NCBI RefSeq assembly: GCF_000270305.1
Contig: NC_015737.1
Span: forward strand, 1,674,501-1,738,500
Direction of reading: 5' to 3'
From: Clostridium sp. SY8519
GTDB lineage: Bacteria > Bacillota > Clostridia > Lachnospirales > Lachnospiraceae
Length of the DNA: 64,000 nt
Each line of letters begins with the position of its first letter. The first letter of the stretch is position 1. The position numbers and the translations under genes were made by a program. Of the stretch, positions 3,545-16,857 are shown piece by piece. The notes under the pieces were generated by a model. That model did not search any database and was not told the DNA's origin. It saw nothing but the letters and a program-made list of their open reading frames with translations.

Positions 3545-3573
3545 TTGAAACAAATACAAAAGTGATTTATAAT
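3545..3573 (+). promoter_or_regulatory. Promoter of the nitrogenase-like/Hyd/Hyp operon
   Basis: TTGAAA (3545-3550), 17-base spacer, TATAAT (3568-3573): a near-consensus vegetative promoter. It starts a leader of about 200 bases before the first gene at 3783. Confidence 0.85.
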
Positions 3574-3720
3574 AAAAATTACAGTTCAGACGGTTAGGGC
3601 TCGTCCCGCGCCGGATGAAGCAGAGAAAAGATATGACTCTGACGGCAAGGGAAGATCCCGCGCAGGAAGAAGCGTATACAGATGACAGACAATCGTATTT
3701 TTATCTTTTGTGTCTTTGTG

Positions 3721-3755
3721 CCCTTCTCCCGGAGTTCTGGGAGAGGGGTTTTTTT
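3721..3755 (+). terminator. Intrinsic terminator inside the operon leader (candidate attenuator)
   Basis: A 10-bp stem (3721-3730 with 3739-3748, one G-U pair), 8-base loop and seven T residues (3749-3755), placed between the promoter at 3545 and the first start codon at 3783. As no gene ends just before it, the likely role is transcription attenuation of the operon. The leader from about 3580 to 3720 does not match a riboswitch class I can name. Confidence 0.75.
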
Positions 3756-3782
3756 ATGAATGATCTGAAGGAGAAGCTGCCT

Positions 3783-4553
3783 ATGTTAAAACTGGCAATT
3801 TACGGAAAAGGCGGAATCGGCAAGTCCACCATGACATCCAACCTGGCTGCGGCCTTTGCGGTTCTTGGAAAAAAAGTCATCCAGATCGGCTGCGACCCGA
3901 AGGCGGATTCCACAATCAATCTGCTGGAAGGGGAACCGCTGCTGCCGGTCATGGATTATCTGAGAGAACATGAAGAGGAGCCGGATTCCATTGAACAGAT
4001 TTCCCGCAGGGGATTCGGAGATATCCTCTGCATTGAGACCGGCGGCCCCACCCCGGGACTCGGCTGCGCGGGGCGGGGAATCATCGCCACCTTTAACCTG
4101 CTGGAGGAACTGGAGCTTTTTGAGACCTGCCAGCCGGATGTGGTGCTGTATGACGTGCTGGGCGATGTGGTCTGCGGAGGATTCGCGGCGCCGATCCGGG
4201 AGGGCTATGCCGGCAAGGTCCTGATTGTCACCTCCGGGGAAAAGATGGCGCTGTATGCGGCTGACAATATCTATCGGGCGGTGCAGAACTTTGAGGACCG
4301 GGGATACGCGAGTGTCGGCGGCATTATTTTCAACCGCAGAAATATTCCGGACGAGGAGCAGAAAGTAACTGCCTTCGCCAAAGAACGGCACCTGGAGATC
4401 GTGGGGGATATTCCGCGGAATGACGAGATCAATCGGTATGAAGAACAGGGCAAGACGGTGATCGAAGGGGATCCGGACCTGCCCATCAGCCGGCGGTTTC
4501 TGGATCTGGCCCGGCGGCTGCTGGATGAGAATGCGCGTGAGGAGACAGAATGA
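3783..4553 (+). CDS. NifH-like nitrogenase iron protein (reductase ATPase)
   Basis: A 256-residue P-loop ATPase of the NifH/BchL/CfbC family, which passes electrons to a component-1 partner using ATP. Visible are the P-loop GKGGIGKST (residues 8-16), GCDPKADST (36-44), and the two cysteines that hold the bridging 4Fe-4S cluster of the dimer, Cys95 in GLGCAGRG and Cys131 in DVVCGGFA. Arg98 sits where NifH is ADP-ribosylated. The start at 3783 is preceded by AAGGAG at 3768; the longer frame from 3615 runs through the leader terminator and is rejected. It overlaps the next gene by four bases. It is shorter than true NifH (about 290) and no nifDK, nifB or nifV is here, so it belongs to a nitrogenase-like group, not to a standard nitrogenase. 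Confidence 0.9.
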   Translation: MLKLAIYGKGGIGKSTMTSNLAAAFAVLGKKVIQIGCDPKADSTINLLEGEPLLPVMDYLREHEEEPDSIEQISRRGFGDILCIETGGPTPGLGCAGRGIIATFNLLEELELFETCQPDVVLYDVLGDVVCGGFAAPIREGYAGKVLIVTSGEKMALYAADNIYRAVQNFEDRGYASVGGIIFNRRNIPDEEQKVTAFAKERHLEIVGDIPRNDEINRYEEQGKTVIEGDPDLPISRRFLDLARRLLDENAREETE

Positions 4554-14177: not shown

Positions 14178-15518
14178 ATGATCGATTTACACAAACAGAC
14201 AGACACTCCGGTGGATCTTACGGAACGTCCCATCGGGGAGGTCTGCGTCGGTACACCGCCCTTTCCGCAGGGGCTGGAATACTGCGCGCCGGCCCGGGGA
14301 CACTGGACCATCGCCCATACTCCCATGCTGATTCCCGGAAGTTATATGATCTATCTGTGCGCTTCCGCCTGTATGCGGGGGGTGGTGCTGTCTGTGCTGG
14401 AATATGAGGGCATGGACCGGTTCTCTATGATAATCCTGAAGGATGAGGATATCTATGAAGGCAATCTGGAGCAGGTGATGATCGACGGAATCTGTGAAAT
14501 CATTGACGGACTTAAGGAGCATCCGCCGATTGTCATGCCCTTTACCAGCTGTATCCACCATTTCCTGGCCTGCGATACCACATATATTTATGAGGTTCTG
14601 CGCAGCCGATATCCGGATATCGATTTTGTGGAATGCTTTATGATACCCACCATCCGCAAAGGGCATATTACCCCGGAGGAACTGATGCAGGTCAATCTGT
14701 ACGATGCCCTGGAAGAGGGGCTGGAAAAGGACCGGAGCGTCAATCTCATCGGATGCAATTACCCGGCGGATCCGGCAGATGACTACTGCAGGATGCTTCT
14801 GGCAGCAGGCTACCGCCTGCGGAATCTGCCCGCAATGGAAACCTATCAGGAATACAAAGATATGGCCAGAAGCGCGGCCAATCTCTATACAGCGCCGGTT
14901 GCCCGGTTTTCTGCCCGGAAGCTGGAAAAACGGCTGAACCAGCAGGATCTGTATCTGCCGTCAGTCTGCACCTTTTCGGAAATCCGACAGGCGCTGACGG
15001 ATCTGGCGGATACCCTTCAGATTCCGCTGCCGGATCTGGACGCCATGCAGGCGGAAGCGGAAGCAGCGGCCGCCAAAGCGCGGAAACTGCTGGGCGACAC
15101 CCCCATTGCCCTGGACTACGAGGTGATTCCTCGCTTCTGTTCCATGGCCCGGATGCTGACGGAGCTGGGTTTCCATGTCACGGATCTTTATTCCGATTAT
15201 GTCCTGCCGGAGGAGCAGGAAGACCTGGACTGGCTGAAGGAACACGTGCCGGAGCTTGTATTCCACGCCACATCCGGCTATGCCTGCCGCATGGAGGAAA
15301 ATATCAAACGGCCGGAGCCGGAAAGAAAGATACTGGCGATTGGCCAGAAGGCGGCTTATTTTACGGGAACCGCCCATTTTGTAAATATGCTGGAATATAA
15401 CGGGCTCTGGGGCTTTCACGGGATTGTCCGGCTGATGGAACTGATGATGGAAGCCTATGAGCAGGAAAGCAATGTACCGGAGATTATTTCGGTCAAGGCA
15501 TGGGGCTGCCATGCATAA
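14178..15518 (+). CDS. Nitrogenase component-1-like subunit A2
   Basis: A 446-residue component-1 family protein, paralogous to A1 (shared block at METYQEYKDMARSAANL). Possible cluster ligands are Cys23, Cys36, Cys61, Cys65, Cys125 and Cys132. It starts 11 bases after hypE behind GAGAGGAAAAG. It forms a second A/B pair with the next gene, separate from the first pair by the hyd and hyp genes. By analogy with NifDK and NifEN, one pair may be catalytic and the other an assembly scaffold; the sequence alone does not say which. Confidence 0.8.
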   Translation: MIDLHKQTDTPVDLTERPIGEVCVGTPPFPQGLEYCAPARGHWTIAHTPMLIPGSYMIYLCASACMRGVVLSVLEYEGMDRFSMIILKDEDIYEGNLEQVMIDGICEIIDGLKEHPPIVMPFTSCIHHFLACDTTYIYEVLRSRYPDIDFVECFMIPTIRKGHITPEELMQVNLYDALEEGLEKDRSVNLIGCNYPADPADDYCRMLLAAGYRLRNLPAMETYQEYKDMARSAANLYTAPVARFSARKLEKRLNQQDLYLPSVCTFSEIRQALTDLADTLQIPLPDLDAMQAEAEAAAAKARKLLGDTPIALDYEVIPRFCSMARMLTELGFHVTDLYSDYVLPEEQEDLDWLKEHVPELVFHATSGYACRMEENIKRPEPERKILAIGQKAAYFTGTAHFVNMLEYNGLWGFHGIVRLMELMMEAYEQESNVPEIISVKAWGCHA

Positions 15519-15531
15519 GAAGGAAGCAGGA

Positions 15532-16779
15532 ATGAAACAGGTATATCACAATCTGTGTACATATTCGGCAGATTTGTTCGGTGTGAATTCCGCACTGTAT
15601 GAGCTGGGAGGACTTTTGGTCATGCATGACGCCTCCGGCTGCAATTCCACCTACAATACGCACGATGAACCCCGCTGGTACACCATGGAAAGCATGGTAT
15701 ACGTATCGGGACTGAATGAAAAAGATGCCATTCTGGGCAATGACCAGCGCCTGATTGACGATGTCTGCGCAGTGGCAGAGAAAGAACATCCAAAATTTAT
15801 CGGACTCACCCGGTCGGTGCTTCCGACTTATATGGGTACGGATCTGAAGGGAATTGCCCGGGTGATTGAAAAACGGACCGGAATCCCGACCTTCGGGTTT
15901 CCCACAAACGGAATGGACAGTTATGTGCTGGGGGCCGGTGCCGCCTTTCGCGCCATTGCGGAGCGGTTTCTTCCGAAGGCGCAGCCGGAAAATCACCTGC
16001 AGGATACCGACGGCGCCGGCCGTTCGGATGCTTCTGCCTGCGCAGCAGACAGGATCCGCCTGAATCTGATGGGAGTCACTCCCCTGGACTTTTCTGTCTG
16101 CGGCAATGTGGAAGCACTGACGGAAACCATGGAACATGCCGGATTTGAGATTCTCAGCAACTGGGCCATGGGCAGCACCCTGGAGGATCTGCAGCAGGCG
16201 CCGGCGGCAGATGTGAGTCTGGTGGTATCCGTGACCGGGCTGCCGGCGGCGGAGTATCTGTATGAAACCTATGGGGTTCCCTATGTACTGGGCATTCCGG
16301 TGGGACGGGAAGTGACAAAGCAGCTGGAAATACTGATCCGCAGGGCCTTTGACACCGGCAGGAATCAGAGCCTGTTTGCCCTCCGGCGGACACCGCTGCC
16401 ACAGAGGGATTTCCGGGAGTGCGGCCGGAAAATCCGGATCATAGGGGAAGCCTTTCACTGTGCCTCCCTGCGCTGTTATCTGGAATGGACCTATGGCTGC
16501 CGGGACGTATCGATTCTGTGCCCGCTGGAACGGGACGGCGGAGTCCTGCGGGAGACAGATGCCCGCCTGAGCGATGAAGCATCTGTGGCGGACTGGATTT
16601 CCGAGGCGGAAGTCGTGATTGCGGATCCTGTATATCAGCGTGTCACAGGGCCGGACATCCGGTTTCTGAAGGATCCCCACGATGCTTATTCCGGCCGGAT
16701 GTACCACAGGATCGGCAGGCGGTTTGTGGGAGCGGACGCGGATCCCTTTCCGGAATTTCATCACGAACTGCAGGAGTAG
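15532..16779 (+). CDS. Nitrogenase component-1-like subunit B2
   Basis: A 415-residue homologue of B1 at 8308, sharing the LGG, GC and DEPRW segments (Cys37 aligns with Cys37 of B1) and the PTNG motif. Cys9 is a further candidate ligand. The start at 15532 has AAGGAAG at 15519-15525; an upstream ATG at 15511 overlaps the preceding gene and has a weaker site. It is the last gene of the operon, followed by the terminator at 16805-16857. Confidence 0.8.
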   Translation: MKQVYHNLCTYSADLFGVNSALYELGGLLVMHDASGCNSTYNTHDEPRWYTMESMVYVSGLNEKDAILGNDQRLIDDVCAVAEKEHPKFIGLTRSVLPTYMGTDLKGIARVIEKRTGIPTFGFPTNGMDSYVLGAGAAFRAIAERFLPKAQPENHLQDTDGAGRSDASACAADRIRLNLMGVTPLDFSVCGNVEALTETMEHAGFEILSNWAMGSTLEDLQQAPAADVSLVVSVTGLPAAEYLYETYGVPYVLGIPVGREVTKQLEILIRRAFDTGRNQSLFALRRTPLPQRDFRECGRKIRIIGEAFHCASLRCYLEWTYGCRDVSILCPLERDGGVLRETDARLSDEASVADWISEAEVVIADPVYQRVTGPDIRFLKDPHDAYSGRMYHRIGRRFVGADADPFPEFHHELQE

Positions 16780-16804
16780 GAGCAGGAATCCGTAACTGTG
16801 GAAA

Positions 16805-16857
16805 AAACCGGAAGACGCCGGATTCAGTCATCTGCTGAATCCGGCGTCTTCCGGTTT
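16805..16857. terminator. Long hairpin between convergent genes
   Basis: A perfect 23-bp stem (16805-16827 with 16835-16857), 7-base loop. On the minus strand it is followed by six T residues, so it clearly serves the lysozyme gene at 16885; on the plus strand it ends the operon with a weaker T tract. Confidence 0.85.

Follow-up and report, generated by a model that had tools for sequence, protein, structure and literature searches.

[FeFe]-hydrogenases are taught to obtain the carbon monoxide (CO) and cyanide (CN) of their active-site H-cluster from HydG, which makes an Fe(CO)2CN synthon, and HydF carries the [2Fe] unit of this pathway. In the Hyp pathway of [NiFe]-hydrogenases, HypF and HypE convert carbamoyl phosphate to cyanide, and HypCD carries an Fe(CN)2CO unit. 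Nitrogenase-type complexes, for their part, are low-potential reductases. Here we describe an operon that brings proteins of all three kinds together in a 64,000-nucleotide stretch of Clostridium sp. SY8519 (contig NC_015737.1, positions 1,674,501 to 1,738,500; hereafter the window): a NifH-like iron protein (H), four component-1-like subunits (A to D), HydE, HydF, HypF, HypC, HypD and HypE. This operon probably encodes a branch of H-cluster assembly that replaces HydG: HypFCDE together with two nitrogenase-like complexes would supply an Fe-CN/CO unit for HydE and HydF. Because its close relatives occur almost only in genomes without HydG, it is likely to provide the Fe-CN-CO piece by a second route.

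Two earlier observations lie close to this locus. Among eight acetogens, HydE and HydF were found in all and HydG in three, with no firm explanation in the accessible portions of the report (PMC9431212, 2022); HypCDEF occurred without HypA and HypB in five of the eight, and C. ljungdahlii stands in both absence lists, that for HydG and that for HypA/HypB. Two linked NifHEN-like copies were described in Coprococcus catus and Dorea longicatena (PMC3464626, 2012), and one sentence of the accessible text connects the NifHEN-like genes, also in other Firmicutes, to proteins of hydrogenase maturation and suggests that they may act in metallocluster assembly; other nitrogenase-like genes are linked there to ATP-binding cassette (ABC) transporters. 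In its accessible main text, a transposon study of C. autoethanogenum (PMC9004356) contains no mention of hypF, nifH, HydE or any of several locus tags. Within a literature coverage that excluded subscription papers and most preprints, no title or opening of an abstract was found that joins nitrogenase-like proteins to HydG-free H-cluster assembly.

Subunit C served as marker for the system. When it was taken as a protein query, 2083 relatives (E <= 0.001) were obtained, which may include more distant component-1 proteins, and a scan of species genomes with an alignment of C gave 507 related stretches, the best 80 being analysed as loci; viral contigs scanned with C gave no match. Gene content at the loci was called by tblastn of the window genes other than hypC, with flanks of at most 10 kb and many loci cut by contig ends. 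The loci come from Lachnospiraceae, Oscillospiraceae, Clostridium (C. ljungdahlii, C. carboxidivorans, C. muellerianum), Acetitomaculum and Mogibacterium, and also from Veillonellaceae, Erysipelotrichia, Treponema, an Atopobium and Synergistaceae. Among 45 carrier genomes picked from these loci, with a leaning towards long loci and isolates, HydG exceeded its cut-off in one, HydF in 41 and group A [FeFe]-hydrogenase (HydA) in 41. The absence of HydG is read from these relatives' genomes and from the window, in which a HydG and a HydA query (E <= 0.001) found nothing besides HydE itself.

The same separation appears in two class samples, one of 128 Clostridia genomes centred on the known carrier C. 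ljungdahlii (G036) and one of 120 Negativicutes centred on G039. HydG was present in 86 of the Clostridia, HydF in 88 and HydA in 107, and C matched at 454-605 bits in six, the line for a positive having been drawn at 450 bits after the gap between 454 and 352 bits was visible. The Clostridia with HydF and without HydG (G036, G095, G106, G151, G164 and G171) are exactly the six with C, and all six have group A HydA above cut-off; with C. ljungdahlii left out, the correspondence is five of five in 127 genomes. C. ljungdahlii itself has no HydG, a HydF of 589 bits, and HydA, A, C and HypD. Among the Negativicutes, C was found in 10 and HydG in 92 with an overlap of 0 (p 1.1e-7), or in 9 and 92 of 119 once the centre is removed (p 4.8e-7), p-values that are too small because the genomes share ancestry and are not independent. 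Pooled over 248 genomes, 16 have C, 178 have HydG and none has both. The exclusion is seen in two classes, as well as in two Treponema genomes and one Atopobium genome among the chosen carriers.

Across the 80 loci the genes follow a recurrent plan, in which module 1 comprises H1-A-B-hypF-hypD-hypE and module 2 comprises H2-C-D, with hydE and hydF in or near some of them. In one locus (L003) the genes from A to D stand in the order of the window, hydE and hydF again separating A from B. The close relatives L005 and L006 have one NifH gene for both pairs (L003 is cut before that point), so that one reductase may serve both A/B and C/D. Module 1 is present in 46 of the 80 loci, none of which has a transporter; of the 34 without it, 25 carry an ABC transporter, called from a binding protein and/or permease above 60 bits, and nine have neither. 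Four of these nine (L052, L062, L074, L079) end in another NifH gene with 69-91% identity to H of the window. By genome, A is present in 34 of the 45 carriers, whose loci are all free of a transporter; the remaining 11 lack A, and each of them has the transporter. Carriers thus form two exclusive types, with module 1 (type I) or an ABC transporter (type II), each together with C/D. A typical type II operon (L029) reads hydE-H-C-D-binding protein-permease-ATPase-hydF-TM1266. Its transporter resembles heme, siderophore and B12 importers, and since all these matches lie under cut-off, the cargo cannot be read from the sequence. The small TM1266 protein, whose family takes its name from the iron-only hydrogenase system (TIGR03959, 114 bits, cut-off 60.8), occurs in 43 of the 80 loci, and hydE, hydF or TM1266 lies within 32 of the 46 module-1 loci and 23 of the 25 transporter loci.

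The Hyp proteins follow module 1. Matches to A above 600 bits came from 34 of the 45 carriers, together with three of the five further carriers of the class sample, the next match being at 261 bits. HypD was found in all 37 of these module-1 genomes and was absent from 12 of the 13 C carriers without module 1; in the exception (G021, without A) the contig that carries hypD also has a weak [NiFe]-like match about 8 kb away. A search for the [NiFe] large subunit (PF00374, E <= 1e-5) in the 37 module-1 genomes gave a strong match in 4, a weak N-terminal match of about 50 bits in 7 and none in 26. As HypD is present in every module-1 genome and a strong [NiFe] match in only four, HypFCDE are not explained by [NiFe]-hydrogenases.

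These distributions bear on the sequence-only reading, an earlier interpretation of the window that had offered two ideas: that the operon makes an iron cofactor with CN/CO ligands using Hyp proteins in place of HydG, or that it serves a nitrogenase-like enzyme with such a cofactor. The former is strongly supported, both by the disjointness of C and HydG in the two class samples and by the tie of HypD to module 1 in genomes that mostly lack a strong [NiFe] match; the latter finds no support beyond the fold of the subunits. Of the genes listed there as missing, HydG is indeed not found in the window, and nor is HydA as a hydrogenase structural gene; HypA, HypB and NifB do not occur in the operon, to whose genes the check for these three was confined. 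That reading made the lack of a hydrogenase gene part of its puzzle; a group A HydA is present in 41 of the 45 carriers. HydG in every carrier, which that reading had named as contrary to it, was not what we saw. Nor had it foreseen a transporter-bearing type without Hyp genes at the locus.

A scheme for the pathway can be drawn from these gene sets. HypF and HypE would form cyanide from carbamoyl phosphate, with HypCD holding an Fe(CN)2CO-type unit. The NifH-like protein H would then drive A/B as an ATP-dependent reductase-scaffold acting after HypCD in the manner of NifEN. The [2Fe] precursor contains 2 CN and 4 CO for two Fe, according to the abstract of PMC13339137, that is, about 1 CN to 2 CO per Fe against 2 CN to 1 CO in the Hyp unit, so that the ligand set must change on the way. 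A nitrogenase-type complex is proposed for this change because a reductase of low potential could plausibly bring it about, and H would next drive C/D, shifting the ligands from the Hyp ratio towards that of the [2Fe] precursor. C/D is placed as the last step before HydE because it is common to both carrier types, after which HydE and HydF would convert the Fe-CN/CO unit into the [2Fe] subcluster. For type II, which has no A/B and almost never HypD, the simplest inference is that the transporter would bring in the precursor otherwise made by module 1. The full form of this scheme, a second HydG-free H-cluster biosynthesis in which nitrogenase-type reductases remodel a Hyp-made unit into the HydE synthon in one lineage and a ready-made organo-iron precursor is imported in another, is put forward tentatively, as nearly as likely to be right as wrong.

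The nitrogenase-like subunits themselves pass the cut-off of none of the assigned groups against which they were compared. For H, A, B and D every NCBIfam score stays under its cut-off, those of nitrogenase, NifEN, DPOR and CfbCD included, and for C no NCBIfam family is matched at E <= 0.001. H scores 304 bits against the NifH equivalog (cut-off 394) and also falls below the CfbC, BchL and BchX cut-offs; A scores 80 bits against the NifE equivalog (cut-off 505), under the cut-offs for NifE and NifN. A, B and D are far under cut-off for the NifD/NifK models, C matches none of the NCBIfam component-1 models, and every match to the BchL/BchN/BchB and CfbC/CfbD equivalogs is under cut-off. Invariant cysteines are C83, C140, C143 and C156 in A, C37 and C42 in B, C65, C125 and C444 in C, and C37 in D; a bridging Fe-S cluster at the interface of each pair is plausible. 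A has no invariant or nearly invariant Cys beyond residue 156, and C has none between C125 and C444, and hence no Cys ligand of the type that holds the iron-molybdenum cofactor (FeMoco) is visible; this check used conserved Cys positions, the exact counterpart of Cys275 not having been mapped. A FeMoco-type site is not indicated by the sequences of A to D, and a role in nitrogen fixation was rejected, no NifHDK cut-off being reached and no conserved FeMoco Cys being visible. The solved sequences scoring best for A and C are NifE chains, and the predicted models of both have the component-1 fold, which fits a scaffold role and does not prove it. In a fold search with A and C, structures of VFe, FeFe, NifEN, DPOR and methylthio-alkane reductase were tied or nearly tied, so that the fold gives no functional choice and does not single out NifEN. 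In three loci (L011, L045, L059) A and B are joined in one open reading frame (ORF) of 820-854 amino acids.

Several points weigh against a HydG-replacing role. The evidence for it is genomic throughout, and the shared ancestry noted above reduces the force of the p-values. One of the 45 carriers, the Synergistaceae genome G040, has both C/D and HydG, and four of the 45 lack a HydA match; four likewise lack HydF above cut-off, one of these having a cut-off fragment of 318 bits. Three further Clostridia (G162, G108, G170) have weaker C-like matches of 316-352 bits, and two of them have HydG; if all three are counted, HydG is present in two of nine C-positive Clostridia. Among the 107 HydA-positive Clostridia, 24 have neither HydF, HydG nor C, so that the absence of HydG does not by itself imply this system. 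Most type II carriers are without HypD, and their cyanide must therefore come from elsewhere. HydE was seen at 30 of the 80 loci, a count made at loci and not genome by genome. Clostridium autoethanogenum is a relative of C. ljungdahlii, and its [FeFe]-hydrogenase has been studied. In the accessible portions of PMC9431212, one of the three HydG calls is that of C. autoethanogenum, assigned by motif.

The three weaker Clostridia were set aside as carriers after the score gap had been seen, and in a tree of C, which includes one wrongly extracted ORF with a very long branch (L096_x), their matches fall outside the C clade. Their loci (L089, L090, L091) hold a sister group of nitrogenase-like genes, after which comes a gene for a FecB-like binding protein, and are not tied to the absence of HydG. 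G040 combines HydG with a type II-like C/D-transporter locus (L069 and L121) in one genome.

Instead, the Fe-CN/CO cofactor made by the operon could be a new one that serves a nitrogenase-like reductase, with A/B or C/D as the final enzyme, HydE and HydF co-opted and the link to [FeFe]-hydrogenase secondary. Four component-1-like subunits do seem many for a maturation role, the predicted models of A and C have the appropriate fold, and the HydG-positive genomes G162 (L089) and G108 (L090) contain related nitrogenase-like genes together with a FecB-like binding protein. This account is nevertheless unlikely, since it leaves unexplained why C above 450 bits is found in exactly those genomes of the class sample that have HydF and not HydG, and why HydA is kept in 41 of 45 carriers, and since no FeMoco-type Cys ligand is visible in A or C. 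The converse possibility, that HydE and HydF mature the hydrogenase by themselves with free cellular CO and cyanide, the nitrogenase-like and Hyp genes being unrelated, goes back to a suggestion in PMC9431212, where activation of about 1% by HydE and HydF without HydG is cited. We think it quite unlikely, as both the exact match of C with the HydF-positive, HydG-negative genomes and the presence of hydE, hydF or TM1266 near most module-1 and transporter loci would have to be coincidence.

Another tyrosine lyase might replace HydG, with the operon merely tuning the process: ThiH is a tyrosine lyase (PMC9046217) and HydG likewise uses tyrosine (PMC9431212), and ThiH-sized matches to the HydG profile of 166-228 bits, named ThiH on size and score, occur in 21 of the 45 carriers. 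The other 24, C. ljungdahlii among them, have no such match, however, and matches of the same size are also found in many HydG-positive genomes; ThiH was rejected as a stand-in on the carrier counts, and this explanation appears very improbable. It is scarcely credible, finally, that the carriers use HypFCDE for [NiFe]-hydrogenases and that the linkage to the nitrogenase-like genes is fortuitous, an idea to which the four module-1 genomes with a strong PF00374 match lend some colour and which was rejected on the PF00374 counts in the remainder (none in 26, about 50 bits and N-terminal only in 7), given that HypD is present in all 37 and absent from 12 of the 13 carriers without module 1.

The hydrogenases of the carriers and of the genomes without HydF, HydG and C were also examined. 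All 17 carrier HydA ORFs fetched have the motif TSC[C/S]P, with TSCSPGW in place of TSCCPxW in 10 (L104, L105, L107, L109-L113, L119, L120); the Ser sits where the proton-relay Cys is expected. Among the 24 HydA-positive Clostridia without HydF, HydG and C (for example G051, G054, G057, G094, G131 and G163; loci L122-L141), 20 were checked and 19 gave a HydA ORF with TSC[C/S]P, often TSCSPGW. These genomes need another explanation, whether a third maturation route, dependence on neighbours, assembly gaps or inactive enzymes.

The features of the operon in the window are given in Table 1. The eleven genes are intact, all on the plus strand, span 3756-16779 with intergenic gaps of -4 to 121 bases, and run 5' to 3' as H, A, hydE, hydF, B, hypF, hypC, hypD, hypE, C, D.

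Table 1. Coordinates (window positions) and supporting evidence for the genes and signals of the operon
Feature	Position	Strand	Description	Evidence
Promoter	3545..3573	+	sigma-70-like, TTGAAA-17-TATAAT	11/12 positions matched
Leader hairpin	3720..3749	+	terminator-like hairpin and T-run, attenuator candidate	13-pair stem, abuts first ATG
H	3756..4553	+	NifH-like iron protein (ATP-dependent reductase)	PF00142 (Fer4_NifH) 285 bits; P-loop GKGGIGKS
A	4550..5881	+	component-1-like subunit, module 1	PF00148 121 bits
hydE	5890..6942	+	radical S-adenosylmethionine H-cluster maturase	TIGR03956 576 bits (cut-off 254.6); CxxxCxxC
hydF	7064..8296	+	H-cluster scaffold GTPase	TIGR03918 570 bits (cut-off 325.6); P-loop, HCGGC
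B	8308..9384	+	component-1-like partner of A	PF00148 73 bits
hypF	9433..11826	+	carbamoyltransferase	TIGR00143 735 bits; two zinc-finger motifs, VQHHYAH
hypC	11828..12037	+	scaffold chaperone	TIGR00074 68.6 bits (cut-off 48); N-terminal MC
hypD	12052..13098	+	Fe(CN)2CO scaffold	TIGR00075 377 bits
hypE	13159..14166	+	cyanide-forming maturase	TIGR02124 427 bits; C-terminal PRIC
C	14178..15518	+	component-1-like subunit, module 2; marker of the system	PF00148 55 bits
D	15532..16779	+	component-1-like partner of C	PF00148 102 bits
End hairpin	16808..16854		hairpin at operon end	20-pair stem; T-run on minus strand; precedes minus-strand ORF

The identification of eleven same-strand genes of these kinds, made in the sequence-only reading, was borne out by family searches: HydE, HydF, HypF, HypC, HypD and HypE all exceed their NCBIfam cut-offs (HypC aside, by wide margins), and alignments to the solved structures 3cix, 5lad and 2z1d cover most of HydE, HydF and HypD, respectively. 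The motifs in HydE, HydF, HypF, HypE and HypC and the P-loop of the NifH-like protein are intact. Some details were revised: alignment of the P-loop region indicates that H most likely starts at 3756 and not at 3615, and the coordinates of hypC were corrected to those of Table 1. Of the single promoter and single end terminator it had described, the promoter-like site is present with its close match and constitutes weak evidence, because the number of such sites in 3300-17500 (8) is near the 7.4 expected from shuffling; the end hairpin, having its T-run on the minus strand before a minus-strand ORF, is not a clean plus-strand terminator. The leader hairpin is an additional element. The leader of about 175 nucleotides (3580-3755) that it ends folds at z -3.2 and may be an attenuator or a riboswitch of unknown class; a search of Rfam with the leader found no family above the gathering score, and among the genes scanned, 8 of 33 for H1 and 5 of 53 for H2 are preceded by a comparable hairpin and T-run.

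Directly upstream of the operon, at 2791-3528, is a gene for a CbiL-like precorrin-2 C20-methyltransferase (above the TIGR01467 cut-off). Far downstream, 58902-63849 holds a Schlafen/AlbA_2 protein and a 982-amino-acid protein with TOTE conflict-system primase and ResIII domains, with a DUF3800-XI RNA right after, and is likely a defence or conflict island.

If the operon does replace HydG, gas-fermenting acetogens and many bacteria of gut and rumen arrive at the same active site in another way, and the assembly worlds of nitrogenase, [NiFe]- and [FeFe]-hydrogenases would be joined. It would give a concrete answer to the gap in the acetogens, in which HydG is missing and HypCDEF occur without HypAB (PMC9431212, accessible portions), a testable role for a group of nitrogenase-like genes without assigned function, and a new gene set for producing [FeFe]-hydrogenases in other hosts.

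Set beside the HydEFG pathway, the system shares orthologous and intact HydE and HydF, a nearby TM1266 gene and a group A [FeFe]-hydrogenase in most carriers, and differs in that HydG, the known source of CO and CN, is under cut-off in 44 of 45 carriers, its place being taken by nitrogenase-like and Hyp proteins or by nitrogenase-like proteins and a transporter. With the HypABCDEF pathway it has in common orthologous HypF, HypC, HypD and HypE with their motifs kept; unlike that pathway, it includes no HypA or HypB among the eleven genes, and most module-1 genomes have no [NiFe] large-subunit match. The likeness to NifEN lies in the best-scoring NifE chains for A and C, in paired component-1 subunits with a NifH-like reductase and in a predicted action in cofactor assembly, whereas the cut-offs for NifE and NifN are missed by far. 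DPOR, CfbCD and methylthio-alkane reductase share the architecture of a NifH-like protein with component-1-like subunits, but have other neighbours; the DPOR and CfbC/CfbD cut-offs were not reached, and no methylthio-alkane reductase model was matched. The NifHEN-like loci of PMC3464626 resemble this operon by description and may be of the same family; the accessible text of that article neither mentions HydG nor offers a distribution test, two exclusive types or a pathway. New here are the disjointness with HydG, the tie of the Hyp proteins to module 1 and the two mutually exclusive types of carrier.

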